Positions 37,203-42,912 of a stretch of 42,912 nucleotides of DNA are shown piece by piece. Position numbers and translations under genes: made by a program. How positions within the stretch are numbered: position 1 is the stretch's first letter; every line of letters starts with the position of its first letter. The DNA comes from Clostridiaceae bacterium. GTDB taxonomy: Bacteria > Bacillota > Clostridia > DSM-8532. The stretch spans positions 1 to 42,912 of the forward strand of contig JAAYNA010000074.1 in assembly GCA_012521105.1 (NCBI GenBank), in the 5' to 3' direction. The notes below the pieces were generated by a model, which worked only from the letters and a program-made list of their open reading frames with translations, made no database searches and was not told the origin of the DNA.

Positions 37203-37636
37203 CAATTTAAGTAAAATAATGTGAATATATGATAGAATTTTATAATTCATGAACATAACATATTAGTTGTTGGAATACATTTTAATATAATAGACGGGAA
37301 AGGAACCTGCTTAATTTCGGTTCCCGAATCAGTTTATACTTTATAATATATATTTTTCCAACTGTCAAAATTTTCGAATTGATTTATTTAAACGGAATAA
37401 TTCAATAATCTAAGAAAAATATTATAAATAAAGACTTACCAGTTGAAATATAACAATTATCAGATAAGTTAATAAACTAAAAAGGCATATACAAGCCGGC
37501 AATAAATCGTTAGTCATATATATTTCCTGTGAAAACATGTTTCTGTTGTAAAAATGAATTTATTGGGATATACTTAAAATAACAGAAATTACCGTGTTTT
37601 AATGGTAAAAAAGACCAATTATCAGAGGTGCATCAG
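37203..37636. other. AT-rich intergenic region between comM and SGNH hydrolase genes
   Basis: No gene is visible in these 434 bp. A 6-bp stem, GGAACC (37302-37307) with GGTTCC (37319-37324), lies within it, and several TATAAT-like strings (for example 37285-37290) occur. None has a convincing -35, so the promoter for the hydrolase gene is not located. Confidence 0.4.
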
Positions 37637-38392
37637 ATGTCAATTATACTTGAGCAGGGTCCGGTTAAGATAGTTGTATCGGGCGATTCCATATCTAGAG
37701 GAGTTGTGTACGATGAAAATAAAAAGAAATATACAATTCTTGAAGAAAACTATGTTGAGCTTCTTCGGGATAAGCTAAATGGCATTGTTCACAATGCTTC
37801 CCGTTTTGGCAGCACACTTATTAAGGGTATCCAAAAACTAAAGAACAACATTTTCAATGATAAACCCGATATAGTACTTATTGAATATGGCGGAAATGAC
37901 TGTGATTTCAACTGGGATGAAATTGCCAAAAATCCTGACGCCATCCATTTACCAAGGACAGATTTTCAAACTTTTGAGAAGGCTCTTTTTGAAACAGTAG
38001 AATTTGTAAGAAAAAATAAAAGCATTCCGGTATTAATGAATCTTCCACCGCTGAACGCTGACAGGTATTTGAACTGGATCAGTAAGAACAATCCTGTTGC
38101 ACAGGAAAATATTCTTAAATGGTTGGGGAGTGTTACCAAAATATACTGGTGGCAGGAGCGTTATAATTCAGTTATACAGAAAATTGCAGAAGAAACTAAA
38201 ACCCTTTGCATAGATATTAGAGGGGCATTTCTTCGTTTTCCTGATTTTACAGAGCTTTTATGCATAGATGGAATTCATCCGAACAAAGAGGGACATATGG
38301 TTATTGCAAATAAAATAATTGATTTTATAAAAGGCGAATATAATTTTCTTTTAAAAAACCATTTTACACCTACAGGGCTATGCACAGACTGA
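37637..38392 (+). CDS. SGNH/GDSL-family hydrolase
   Basis: A 251-residue SGNH hydrolase, probably an esterase or deacetylase. Block I has the nucleophile Ser18 in VSGDSISRG, block III has EYGGNDCDF, and block V has DGIHPNKEGH with the catalytic Asp and His. There is no signal peptide or membrane segment, so it acts in the cytoplasm. I take the ATG at 37637, six bases after GAGGTG; the GTG at 37628 overlaps that site. It stands alone, divergent from comM, and converges on the germination operon with 11 bases between stops. The substrate is unknown. Confidence 0.88.
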   Translation: MSIILEQGPVKIVVSGDSISRGVVYDENKKKYTILEENYVELLRDKLNGIVHNASRFGSTLIKGIQKLKNNIFNDKPDIVLIEYGGNDCDFNWDEIAKNPDAIHLPRTDFQTFEKALFETVEFVRKNKSIPVLMNLPPLNADRYLNWISKNNPVAQENILKWLGSVTKIYWWQERYNSVIQKIAEETKTLCIDIRGAFLRFPDFTELLCIDGIHPNKEGHMVIANKIIDFIKGEYNFLLKNHFTPTGLCTD

Positions 38393-38403
38393 ACCACACC
38401 TGA

Positions 38404-38577
38404 TTATCTGCGTATCCACAAAAGGTACAATGGGAATATAATGCAAATAATGGATAATATAAAAAGTGCAATTCCGCCTTTTTTATTTTCCCTGAAAGTC
38501 CATACTCCATAACTGATGGTATATATTCCGGCCCATAACAGTATTATTAAAATAATTAATACTACTACCGTATTCAC
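38404..38577 (-). CDS. Small two-helix membrane protein coupled to gerC (candidate D subunit)
   Basis: A 57-residue protein. Helix one is near residues 3-22 (VVVLIILIILLWAGIYTI), a short basic loop (FRENKKGG) follows, and helix two is near 35-54 (IALFILSIICIIFPLYLLW) before a WIRR end. The GTG start overlaps the gerC TGA stop by four bases (GTGA), and AAAGGAG lies seven bases before it, inside gerC. This arrangement is strong evidence for a real gene. In Bacillus, small two-helix D subunits are encoded with germinant receptor operons and modulate germination. Size, topology and place agree, but I cannot show sequence homology by eye. Confidence 0.72.
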   Translation of the reverse strand: MNTVVVLIILIILLWAGIYTISYGVWTFRENKKGGIALFILSIICIIFPLYLLWIRR

Positions 38578-39881
38578 CTGATATCTCCTTTCAATTGATT
38601 TGCAGGTACTTGTTTCACCATTATACCCGAGCGTCTTATTTTTACCTCTACATCTACGATAAAATCGGCGTTTTCATACTCCTCTGCCCAATTATAATTA
38701 ATCCAGTCGTCCCAAAGCAAAAAGGTTTTCTTTACAGACTTTCCTATGAAACAGATATCGCTTTTAAATTCGTCCCGGGTTTTTTCAAGAAATGAAATAA
38801 CTCTTTCTTTAACATACCCTGAAGCATAGTTTTCAAGTTTTTTTAGGCCTTCACCCGTCGAGTAATCACTATTACCGGTTATTGACAGTATATCTCCTTC
38901 CAGTGAAACCTGAACATTTACGACAGGCCTATTCTCCTTGATTTTGACATTGATTTCAGGTTTCCTTGCCTGCCCTAACCTTAATGTAATATACTCTCTT
39001 TTTCCTGTAATATTTTTGGCCCCTTCACCAGGATCGGGCAATGTATAATACGCCTGTCCTAATTTGCCGGAAACCATAAGATAATAAAAGGTTTCACGGC
39101 CTGTCAGTTCTCCCACCATTTTATCGGCCTTAAAAACAGCCGTACCCATTTGCCTTACTTTATTTTCGTATACAATCGGCATATCTGTAGCGGTGTAATC
39201 TCCTTCCAAAACTTCACCTTCAGAATTTTTCAGATTATACATGACTTCGGTTAAATCTTTTGAGTCCTCAATCTGCGAAATATCCAATAAAATAGCTACT
39301 GCTTCATTGCATGTACATTCCATTCTGCAATAAAACTCTGCAATGGTACTTCCGTTTGAAAAACCGGTATATTCAAAGGATTCCATGATCAATTCAAAGT
39401 GTTTTGACGGATTGAATTCAAGAACGGGTTTACTTTCTTTCAAGAATTCTTCTGCGCTGCCTCTTGTTATACCTATATGAGTGTCCGGCCTGAATTCCCT
39501 GAACCTGGCAAATGTATTTATAAATCTCTCTACTCCCTGTTCTGCAAGTTCCTTTGATATAACAATAAGCTTTGCATGGGTAAAATTAATACGTTTACTT
39601 ATAAGTGAGTTTACTATATTTATACCTCCGAGTATGGTGGGTGCTGCAACTGTTATTATATTTGTTGCATTTTCAATTTCACCTGGTTCGGGCCCAACCC
39701 CCACCGCAATAGGCACGGCAAGCAACAGCGTTATAATTAAATTACCGTCGGCTCCGTCATCCAATCCCAGGGCAACAACATAAGCCAACTCATCAGGTTC
39801 AAAAGCATCAAAGCAACCACTTAAAAATATCATTGAAATAATTATTAAAAATATCAGAATTGTTTTCATACGTATAATCAT
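38574..39881 (-). CDS. Germinant receptor C subunit, Ger(x)C-family lipoprotein
   Basis: A 435-residue lipoprotein of the GerAC family. It has a signal peptide with lipobox LSGC (Cys23), followed by the family N-terminus DELAYVVALGLD and, further on, RINFTHAKLIVISKELAEQG and FREFRPDTHIGITRGSAEEF. The mature protein sits on the outer face of the spore inner membrane and is needed for the receptor to work. The ATG overlaps the gerB stop (ATGA) with GGAGG ten bases upstream; Met5 is an alternative start. It is the third gene of the operon. Confidence 0.93.
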   Translation of the reverse strand: MIIRMKTILIFLIIISMIFLSGCFDAFEPDELAYVVALGLDDGADGNLIITLLLAVPIAVGVGPEPGEIENATNIITVAAPTILGGINIVNSLISKRINFTHAKLIVISKELAEQGVERFINTFARFREFRPDTHIGITRGSAEEFLKESKPVLEFNPSKHFELIMESFEYTGFSNGSTIAEFYCRMECTCNEAVAILLDISQIEDSKDLTEVMYNLKNSEGEVLEGDYTATDMPIVYENKVRQMGTAVFKADKMVGELTGRETFYYLMVSGKLGQAYYTLPDPGEGAKNITGKREYITLRLGQARKPEINVKIKENRPVVNVQVSLEGDILSITGNSDYSTGEGLKKLENYASGYVKERVISFLEKTRDEFKSDICFIGKSVKKTFLLWDDWINYNWAEEYENADFIVDVEVKIRRSGIMVKQVPANQLKGDIR

Positions 39882-40987
39882 GGCTTAGCTTCCTCCCTGC
39901 GCTTCTTTGATCCAGTCCGGACTGAGGCAATAATAACCAATATTAGCGGAAAAACAAGTGTGAATATCCAGGAAAAAATGCGATATATGTGCATTTCTAC
40001 CCGCAGTGTAGAGTACAGGTTTTCAGGCAGCAGACTTAAAGTAAAAATAAGAATAATAAAAGGAACTATTAATGGCTTACGGTACTTAAGGTTAAAAGTT
40101 CTTTGAAAAATATAGGTAATAAAATACAAACTGGAGCTTAGATACAGGAAAGCACTCGAAGCCCATATTAATATAAATGCCGCCTCTATCCTCGAAAAAA
40201 ACCTGCCTATTTTAATTGTTCTGGCCAATTGATACATTGGCAGGAAAAACTCGGTTGAAGTTGGATATTGATATACCATAAGATAACACAACGAGGACAA
40301 AACAAGAAAAAGTCCTGAAAAAAATATTCCATACCGTCCTATTTCTGCGAAACTATTTTTCTTTTTCAAAAATGGCATTAAAAAAAACAGTGCAATTAAT
40401 TCAGAGAAATATGACAGATTTATTATACCCTTTTGCAGTATTGCTTTAACGCCCAATCCCAACCATGGTGAAAGTCTGCTTATGTCATATCTGGGGATAT
40501 TAAATAAAAGTATTAATGTAAAAGCAGCAGCTAAAAGCGGTATCGCCAAAACATGGAGTCTGCTGATGGCTTCAAGCCCTAAATAGGCCCCCACAATCAT
40601 CCCTATAGAGAACAAAAGGATCACTATACTGACAGGAGTGGATGTAAGACTGATGACTTTTATATCCTCAGCAAATTGCCTGAGTACAACATGAGTTATA
40701 TACATAAACTGGATTAGAAAAATAATACCTGCAATTATCCTGCCAATTTCACCAAGAGCAATCTCGCCTACATCTAAAAGATCATTTCCGGCAAATTTCC
40801 TATATAGTCGGGATATAAGCAAGAACAGTAAATATACAACCACCGAATCCAGCAGAATCATTATCCACGCAGCGCTTCCTGCATCTTCAGAAACAGTCCT
40901 GGGAAAATCAAGTATAATTTTGGATAAAATCAAATTCAGCAACAGGCAGGCTGCTTCGAAATTACCGATTGTGGTCTTCTGATCCAT
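39878..40987 (-). CDS. Germinant receptor B subunit, spore germination permease
   Basis: A 369-residue polytopic protein with about ten membrane helices, of the GerAB/GerB group in the APC transporter superfamily. It is the subunit that binds the germinant in gerA-type receptors. Family features are the N-terminal ILDFPRTVSEDAGSAAWI and the PRYDISRLSPWLGLG segment. GGAG lies nine bases before the ATG. The gene starts 26 bases before the gerA stop and its own stop overlaps gerC, so the operon is tightly coupled. The germinant cannot be predicted. Confidence 0.93.
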   Translation of the reverse strand: MDQKTTIGNFEAACLLLNLILSKIILDFPRTVSEDAGSAAWIMILLDSVVVYLLFLLISRLYRKFAGNDLLDVGEIALGEIGRIIAGIIFLIQFMYITHVVLRQFAEDIKVISLTSTPVSIVILLFSIGMIVGAYLGLEAISRLHVLAIPLLAAAFTLILLFNIPRYDISRLSPWLGLGVKAILQKGIINLSYFSELIALFFLMPFLKKKNSFAEIGRYGIFFSGLFLVLSSLCYLMVYQYPTSTEFFLPMYQLARTIKIGRFFSRIEAAFILIWASSAFLYLSSSLYFITYIFQRTFNLKYRKPLIVPFIILIFTLSLLPENLYSTLRVEMHIYRIFSWIFTLVFPLILVIIASVRTGSKKRREEAKP

Positions 40988-42800
40988 CTGTGTTTACTCC
41001 TTTCTCCGATATTACCCATTCCCGGCTAATAAAAGGCTGCTGCTTAATATCCTTTGGATTCACAAAATCAGGTCTGTCTTCTTCTTTCCAAAGGGGTGCT
41101 CTAAATATGGTATTAGTTCTTTTCCCTGTGGTTTTTGGTGCAAATGGTGCAAAGAAAGGAACACCAAAGGATTTTGCATTTACCAGCAAAAGAAAATGTA
41201 TGAAAACTCCAAGAGTTATTCCCAAAAGACCTGCAAAACCTGCCAGAAGTATATAAACAAAGCGTAATGCACGGAAAGAGTATCCCAGTGAAAAATCGGG
41301 AACTGCAAAAGAACCAATTCCTGTAACAGCCACAATAATTATAAGTATTGGACTTACAAGATTCGCTGAAACAGCAGCCTGGCCCAATATTAAACCACCA
41401 ACAATACTAAGAGTTGGGCCTATCGGACCCGGTATTCTTATTCCTGCCTCACGGATAAGCTCAAAAGCTATCTCCATGATAAGAATGCTTGCAATCGTCG
41501 GGAAGGGAACCTTCTCCCTTGATGATGCAATAGCAAGAAGTAAGTCGGTAGGCAGCATCTCCTGATGGTAGTTGGTTATGGCAAGATAAATTGAAGGAAG
41601 AAAGAGTGTAATCAGGATACCCAGAATTCTTATAAAGCGAAGTAAAGTGGAGTAAGGATACCTCAAATAATAGTCCTCGGGTGAATGGATAAGGTTGAAA
41701 AAAGTTACCGGAACCACTATTACAAACGGGCTCCCATGAACTATTATTGCAACACGGCCTTCTCCCAAATATGCTGCCACACGATCGGGACGCTCGGTTA
41801 ATAATAATTGTGGCGCGGGAAGAAAAGTGTCGTCCTCCAAAAACTGTTCAAGCTCGGCCGAGTCACGTAAGTAAGCGATTTTTACACTTTTAAGCCTCTT
41901 GCGTACTTCGTCTACCAGTCTGGTATTTGCTATGTTTTTTATATAAACGATACTGCAGGGAGTCTTGCTTCTTTCACCAACCAGTACATCTTCCACAATC
42001 AGGTTCTCATCTTTAAGTATTTTTCTAAGAAGGGCAGAGTTAGCTCTGTTCGTTTCAATAAAAGACTCTCTGGGACCGCGTATATTCAGTTCAGATGTTG
42101 GTTTTTCAACACTTCTGTGCTCCCAGCCCTTCACATCTGCAGCAAAAGCCACATCCAAACTGTCAATAAAAATTCCAATGCCTCCGAAATTAACTTCGTC
42201 AACAACTTCCTGATATGTTTTGCACATTTTAATCTGGTTTTGCGGAATTAAATGGCTGTATATAATATCTCTTACCGATTGTTCTTCCGTGTCCATCGGC
42301 ATAACCGACAAAGTCATTAACGGAACAAGAATATTGTTGTTAATAATAGAACTGTTTACCAGGCCATCGAAAAAACAAACGAAAGCAGGATAAACCTTAT
42401 CTTTCACACGTACTTTAAACTCACGTATTTTAAAGTCTCCATTTATATCTGCGCTATATCTTTTTTTTATCACTTCAAGACATGTCCTGAAAGAACTGCT
42501 GATTTTCCCATCTTCGGCATGTTCTTTCTCTTCTTCATTATTCTTGCCTTCATTATTATCTATTGGAATTGGTTTTGTTATCTTTTTTTTTCTTTCAGTT
42601 TTTCTATTGCAATCATTATTTTTATCGTTATCGGCCTTTTCTTTCTCCTCATCTCCATCAGGGACATCTGCATTTTCATCTTCTGTTCTGTTTGATGCAT
42701 TCTCATCGTGCCGGTGTTCAAAATCATCAAGAACAAAAGGTTTCTTGGGTTCTTCGGGTTTAAACAGAATTATGGATTTAAGATAAGAAGCTATTTTCAA
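40962..42800 (-). CDS. Germinant receptor A subunit, GerA family
   Basis: A 612-residue GerA-family protein that forms the main oligomeric subunit of the receptor, acting as the ion channel in B. subtilis GerA. After a basic N-terminus, residues about 28-100 form a highly charged, low-complexity linker. The soluble domain follows (about 105-380) with GPRESFIETNRANSALLR. Then come about five helices (from about 390) with PFPTIASILIMEIAFELIRE and GPIGPTLSIVGGLILGQAAV. It starts with TTG, seven bases after GGAGG. It is the first gene of the gerA-gerB-gerC operon; no clear sporulation-type promoter is visible upstream. Confidence 0.94.
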   Translation of the reverse strand: MKIASYLKSIILFKPEEPKKPFVLDDFEHRHDENASNRTEDENADVPDGDEEKEKADNDKNNDCNRKTERKKKITKPIPIDNNEGKNNEEEKEHAEDGKISSSFRTCLEVIKKRYSADINGDFKIREFKVRVKDKVYPAFVCFFDGLVNSSIINNNILVPLMTLSVMPMDTEEQSVRDIIYSHLIPQNQIKMCKTYQEVVDEVNFGGIGIFIDSLDVAFAADVKGWEHRSVEKPTSELNIRGPRESFIETNRANSALLRKILKDENLIVEDVLVGERSKTPCSIVYIKNIANTRLVDEVRKRLKSVKIAYLRDSAELEQFLEDDTFLPAPQLLLTERPDRVAAYLGEGRVAIIVHGSPFVIVVPVTFFNLIHSPEDYYLRYPYSTLLRFIRILGILITLFLPSIYLAITNYHQEMLPTDLLLAIASSREKVPFPTIASILIMEIAFELIREAGIRIPGPIGPTLSIVGGLILGQAAVSANLVSPILIIIVAVTGIGSFAVPDFSLGYSFRALRFVYILLAGFAGLLGITLGVFIHFLLLVNAKSFGVPFFAPFAPKTTGKRTNTIFRAPLWKEEDRPDFVNPKDIKQQPFISREWVISEKGVNTDGSEDHNR

Positions 42801-42838
42801 AAAACACCCTCCCCGAAAAGTACAGTTTTACGATAGTT

Positions 42839-42851
42839 TTCTCAATGAGAA
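42839..42851. promoter_or_regulatory. Small palindrome upstream of the ger operon
   Basis: TTCTCA and TGAGAA form a perfect inverted repeat around one base, about 40 bases before the gerA start. It may be an operator; I find no convincing sigma-G-type -35/-10 pair in 42801-42912. Confidence 0.25.
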
Positions 42852-42912
42852 CCGATGTTATACCCTTTTTGCTTATTAATCAGGTTCGGAGCCGGTGTAA
42901 AAATAGTTTACC

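Follow-up and report, generated by a model that had tools for sequence, protein, structure and literature searches.

Germinant receptors determine the timing of spore awakening. Small accessory D subunits of these receptors are already known, and in Bacillus they are two-helix proteins encoded within or beside the receptor operon (PMC4661057). GerKD, B. megaterium GerUD and B. cereus GerID resemble the product of the gene described here: all are small two-helix membrane proteins whose genes belong to, or adjoin, a GerA-type operon and in many cases come immediately behind gerC. Without GerUD, the apparent Km for glucose is 7.5 mM instead of 1.7 mM; either of its helices alone, or its entire sequence reversed, still works, and a chaperone role was proposed by the authors (PMC4661057). 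In B. cereus, GerID was placed in a model of the GerI receptor at high confidence (PMC13170314). Extra gerXB genes have been given as the explanation for the tetra- and pentacistronic operons found in C. sporogenes and C. botulinum, and in the open-access literature we found no paper describing a D gene in clostridia.

Here, we analyzed a 42,912-nucleotide contig of a Clostridiaceae bacterium (JAAYNA010000074.1, hereafter the window), in which a short frame behind gerC had been predicted from the sequence to be an overlooked gene for a fourth receptor subunit. According to the ORF list, the minus strand of the window encodes gerA, gerB, gerC and D in this order, with every gene overlapping the next. 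The gerA gene (40962-42800; PF03323, 3e-172), which apparently starts with TTG, is followed by gerB for the permease-like subunit (39878-40987; PF03845, 2e-43; TIGR00912) and by gerC for the lipoprotein subunit (38574-39881; PF25198, 2e-32; PF05504, 7e-39; TIGR02887), which has the lipobox LSGC. D occupies 38404-38577 on the same strand and consists of 57 codons plus TAA, with a GTG start at 38577-38575; its product is a two-helix membrane protein of 57 aa (MNTVVVLIILIILLWAGIYTISYGVWTFRENKKGGIALFILSIICIIFPLYLLWIRR). Both sequence signals named in the original prediction were borne out. Specifically, the GTG of D and the TGA of gerC (38576-38574) share a four-base GTGA (38574-38577), an arrangement pointing to translational coupling, and a Shine-Dalgarno sequence, AAAGGAG, lies within gerC (38591-38585) 7 nt ahead of the GTG. 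The operon promoter is incompletely visible because the contig stops ~110 nt upstream of gerA (42800-42912), and no convincing sigma-G-like site was seen by eye in that stretch. Near D, sigma-70-like sites showed no excess over shuffles, an RNA fold check revealed nothing unusual, and no intrinsic terminator was found between D and the convergent gene.

The length of the D frame is not significant by itself, since ORFs of ≥40 aa are common here (46 of them overlap the window's last 10 kb). It is the conservation of the frame that sets it apart from chance. The frame was free of stops in all close relatives compared (5-6), with dN/dS of 0.08-0.18 in pairs with unsaturated dS and 0.06-0.08 where dS was very large. 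Compared with its nearest congener, the window differed mostly at the third codon position (13, 2 and 26 at positions 1, 2 and 3), and a second comparison gave 11, 5 and 24. In the same pairs, involving the two nearest relatives, the pN of D (0.12) was equal to that of gerC (0.11-0.15). Purifying selection acts on D about as strongly as on a core receptor subunit, which marks it as a gene. The suspicion of a gene behind gerC was thus correct: conserved small frames with a synonymous bias do follow gerC in close relatives, where the frame is not broken and purifying selection is not absent.

AlphaFold2, given an alignment of only four sequences, predicted helices at residues 3-30 and 32-55 (mean pLDDT 90.5), with Asn31 between them in the turn and R29, K32 and K33 nearby; this agrees with the two membrane helices and basic loop that had been read from the sequence. 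Among the most conserved residues of the window's family are Y19, T20, S22, Y23 and G24 at the end of helix 1, together with N31 in the turn, and their conservation suggests a specific helix-packing face. We refer to this family as type II and to the Bacillus-like family as type I; the hallmark of type II is the motif YT-x-S-[YF]-[GA] with an Asn at the turn. Type II proteins carried a mean of 2.5 Lys and Arg residues at the turn, 0.03 at the N terminus and 0.69 at the C terminus, a pattern present in 89% of rows. Since positive charge is concentrated at the turn, the positive-inside rule predicts that the turn faces the core, whereas the loop of GerUD was mapped to the outside. The membrane orientation of type II, as predicted from charge alone, is therefore probably opposite to that of GerUD.

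An initial search within the family recovered a conserved open D frame in 14 other genomes (E < 1e-5), and in all 14 gerC adjoined it on the same strand. A profile built from 18 members of the window's D family (A1) had matches in 97 of the 391 genomes sampled from the class, spread over 52 of 222 genera, and nearly all of these loci were inspected for gerA, gerB and gerC with profiles built here. Among the 118 distinct proteins with an assignable start, 115 were encoded 3' of a same-strand gerC at a distance of no more than 400 nt and 114 were preceded by a Shine-Dalgarno-like motif; the overlap with gerC was the identical 4 nt in 42 and 1 nt in 10. This pairing is independent evidence, because the A1 profile contains no gerC information. 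Of 388 genomes from the phylum, 64 carried the D family according to a broader profile (A3). At loci outside the class, D came right after gerC in 25 of 29 cases, was on the opposite strand in 2 and had no gerC in the retrieved stretch in the other 2. In Bacillota, D belongs as the fourth gene to a widespread clade of receptors of the GerA type.

To examine the pairing from the other side, we collected the gerC homologues of the same sample at E ≤ 1e-40 (n = 94). A neighbouring D was present for 90, of which 79 were recovered by A1 and 11 diverged ones by a wider profile. These counts show that the pairing of D with its gerC clade is near-obligatory. The four gerC loci at which D was not detectable (L190, L193, L195 and L196) are apparent losses, and reading three of them by eye disclosed no such small membrane frame directly after gerC; they should be useful as natural controls. 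A few homologues stray in the other direction, being separate from gerC or on the strand opposite to it (L235, L247, L238 and L251). Given these strays and the 4 of 94 gerC loci without D, D is not an absolute requirement everywhere. For L238 (1500-1650) and L251 (1500-1647), the type II D frame sits in a retrieved stretch without gerC, and its neighbour in L238 resembles a carbon-starvation (CstA-type) permease.

The order of genes varies among these operons. In those with the order A-C-D-B (L011, L013-L016 and L034), D still stands behind C. The A-C-D-B operons of one genus (g7) resemble the B. megaterium arrangement, in which gerUD lies between gerUC and gerVB (PMC4661057). At four loci (L074, L076, L079 and L082), a second gerB is located directly 3' of D, giving the order B-C-D-B.

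The genome of the window has two further receptor operons with gerC (contigs C96 and C81), each with a type I D gene on the minus strand after gerC. These genes encode two-helix proteins of 69 aa (L044:2191-2400, C96) and 81 aa (L043:2822-3067, C81), so that all three gerC-bearing receptor operons of the genome carry a D gene. An HMM built solely from clostridial type I sequences matched two further D frames, one in an operon on a Paenibacillus plasmid (1.3e-9) and one in an operon of Priestia (8e-4). As P-[TN]-P follows helix 2 in both of these frames too, we identify type I as the Bacillales D family. When rebuilt without L069 and L043, the HMM scored these two at 8e-4 and 2e-5; tblastn of type I proteins found no others in plasmids. 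The type II HMM yielded nothing at E < 1 in the Bacillales loci. Type II proteins are shorter (50-60 aa) than the type I relatives found here (69-81 aa) and GerUD (76 aa), and unlike Bacillus-type D they have a tight turn with the conserved Asn and YT-x-S-[YF]-[GA]. On a GerC tree (fasttree, 142 rows, long branches flagged), the type of D switches once between I and II; as the loci were picked largely via their D genes, the tree shows a clean separation rather than the frequency of missing D.

The D protein of the window had no significant match in Pfam, NCBIfam, PHROGs or the sequences of the PDB. Its score against PF13129 (DUF3953), a model of 41 positions without an assigned function, was 14.6 bits, below the gathering cut-off of 22 bits. 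A subgroup of type II does exceed this cut-off (L100-like, 8e-15). At 0.01, PF13129 matched 4 of 38 family representatives, and a search of 341 genomes from the class at E 0.01 gave matches in 18. We dropped DUF3953 as the family of D, as it covers a subset only and the control genomes of B. subtilis and an archaeon match as well. The D frames of L100, L103, L105 and L122 belong to the matching subgroup, and a part of DUF3953 is thus receptor-associated. We found no description in the open literature of a second, non-matching D family with its own receptor clade, and Pfam and NCBIfam leave this family unnamed.

We next considered what this gene could be other than the fourth component of a receptor. 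A chance open frame, conceivable given how frequent frames of this length are in the window, has a negligible probability, as D is under purifying selection and has homologues throughout the phylum. A peptide with no role in germination, such as a small holin- or toxin-like membrane protein, could have entered the operon by chance, as the few homologues apart from gerC (L238 and L251) might hint; the overwhelming pairing with gerC makes this very improbable, as does the result that the window protein matched no PHROG and had no significant hit in Pfam. The original prediction equated the gene with the D subunits of Bacillus. It was right in that a small two-helix, D-like gene stands beside gerC, and its position after gerC, its size, the two helices with a basic connector and the kind of operon are all alike in the two groups (PMC4661057). 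A diverged homologue of the GerKD/GerUD type, still acting as a D subunit, may have drifted beyond recognition, and profile similarity is easily lost in very short membrane proteins. However, hhalign of type I against type II scored 13.4 (Prob 1.8%, P 0.027), which is inside the range of column-shuffled alignments (95th percentile 12.4, maximum 14.4), whereas two distant halves of type II, our positive control, were aligned with Prob 99.1% (E 1e-18). The two HMMs gave no cross matches, P-[ST/N]-P follows helix 2 in almost every one of the 33 type I rows (L069 included) and is lacking in the window protein and type II, and the GerC tree has its single change of D type. We consider drift from a common D ancestor doubtful. 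With no similarity to type I above shuffles, no P-[ST/N]-P and a charge-predicted orientation opposite to that of GerUD, the identification of the window's D as the Bacillus D subunit was not supported.

A closer competitor is a helper specific to GerC, such as a membrane chaperone or a partner in lipoprotein assembly, that would not persist as a stable subunit once the receptor is complete. D lies behind gerC, and not gerB, in nearly all operon orders, and GerUD, for which a chaperone role was suggested, functions as single helices or in reverse (PMC4661057). Gene order alone is no proof of contact, and the window's family, in contrast to the tolerant GerUD, is so strongly conserved at the residue level that a specific interface is suggested. 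As type II is conserved at the residue level across the phylum while GerUD tolerates changes of sequence, D is more likely a stoichiometric structural subunit than a generic membrane helper, and we regard the helper role as improbable. A real two-helix gene that is operon-final, overlaps gerC and has been kept across many Bacillota is best interpreted as encoding a fourth component of the receptor.

We therefore favor, with a probability of roughly three in four, the explanation that D belongs to an A-B-C-D receptor of the GerA type, as a hairpin that is made by re-initiation and packs as the fourth subunit. GerA, GerB and GerC share its operon and presumably its complex; D is not homologous to them and would be an added component. 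Ribosomes would re-initiate at the GTGA on the gerC message, so that D would be made in step with GerC, and the hairpin would sit in the spore inner membrane. There, the face around Tyr19, Thr20, Ser22, Tyr23 and Gly24 may pack on the membrane helices of GerA and GerB, or under a GerC ring, and D as the fourth subunit may stabilize the receptor or tune its sensitivity. What we infer for D is its translation by re-initiation, its place in the complex, the face through which it makes contact and its effect on germination; the effect of GerUD on affinity (PMC4661057) and the place of GerID in the GerI model (PMC13170314) would support them by analogy. The predicted fourth subunit of a clostridial receptor thus stands as to gene, position and conserved pairing with gerC, and its physical place in the receptor is likely. 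The receptor probably has a fourth subunit that is different in kind from the Bacillus one.

We tentatively propose, with confidence somewhat short of even, the broader view that a second, independent D family serves as the near-obligatory, sequence-specific fourth subunit of a clade of A-B-C-D receptors, in an orientation opposite to that of Bacillus D. If true, the GerA-type receptor family would have recruited two-helix accessory subunits twice. Models or reconstitutions of clostridial receptors that include only A, B and C may miss a component that is almost always co-encoded with this receptor type and whose small gene has escaped family models. The conservation of residues in type II, set against a GerUD that can be reversed, may also offer a cleaner handle on the function of D proteins.

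Finally, the gene convergent on D in the window encodes a GDSL-family hydrolase (37628-38392, plus strand), with 11 nt between the two stops. This neighbour was kept, at 70-82% identity, in several relatives (L003, L005-L009 and L032).
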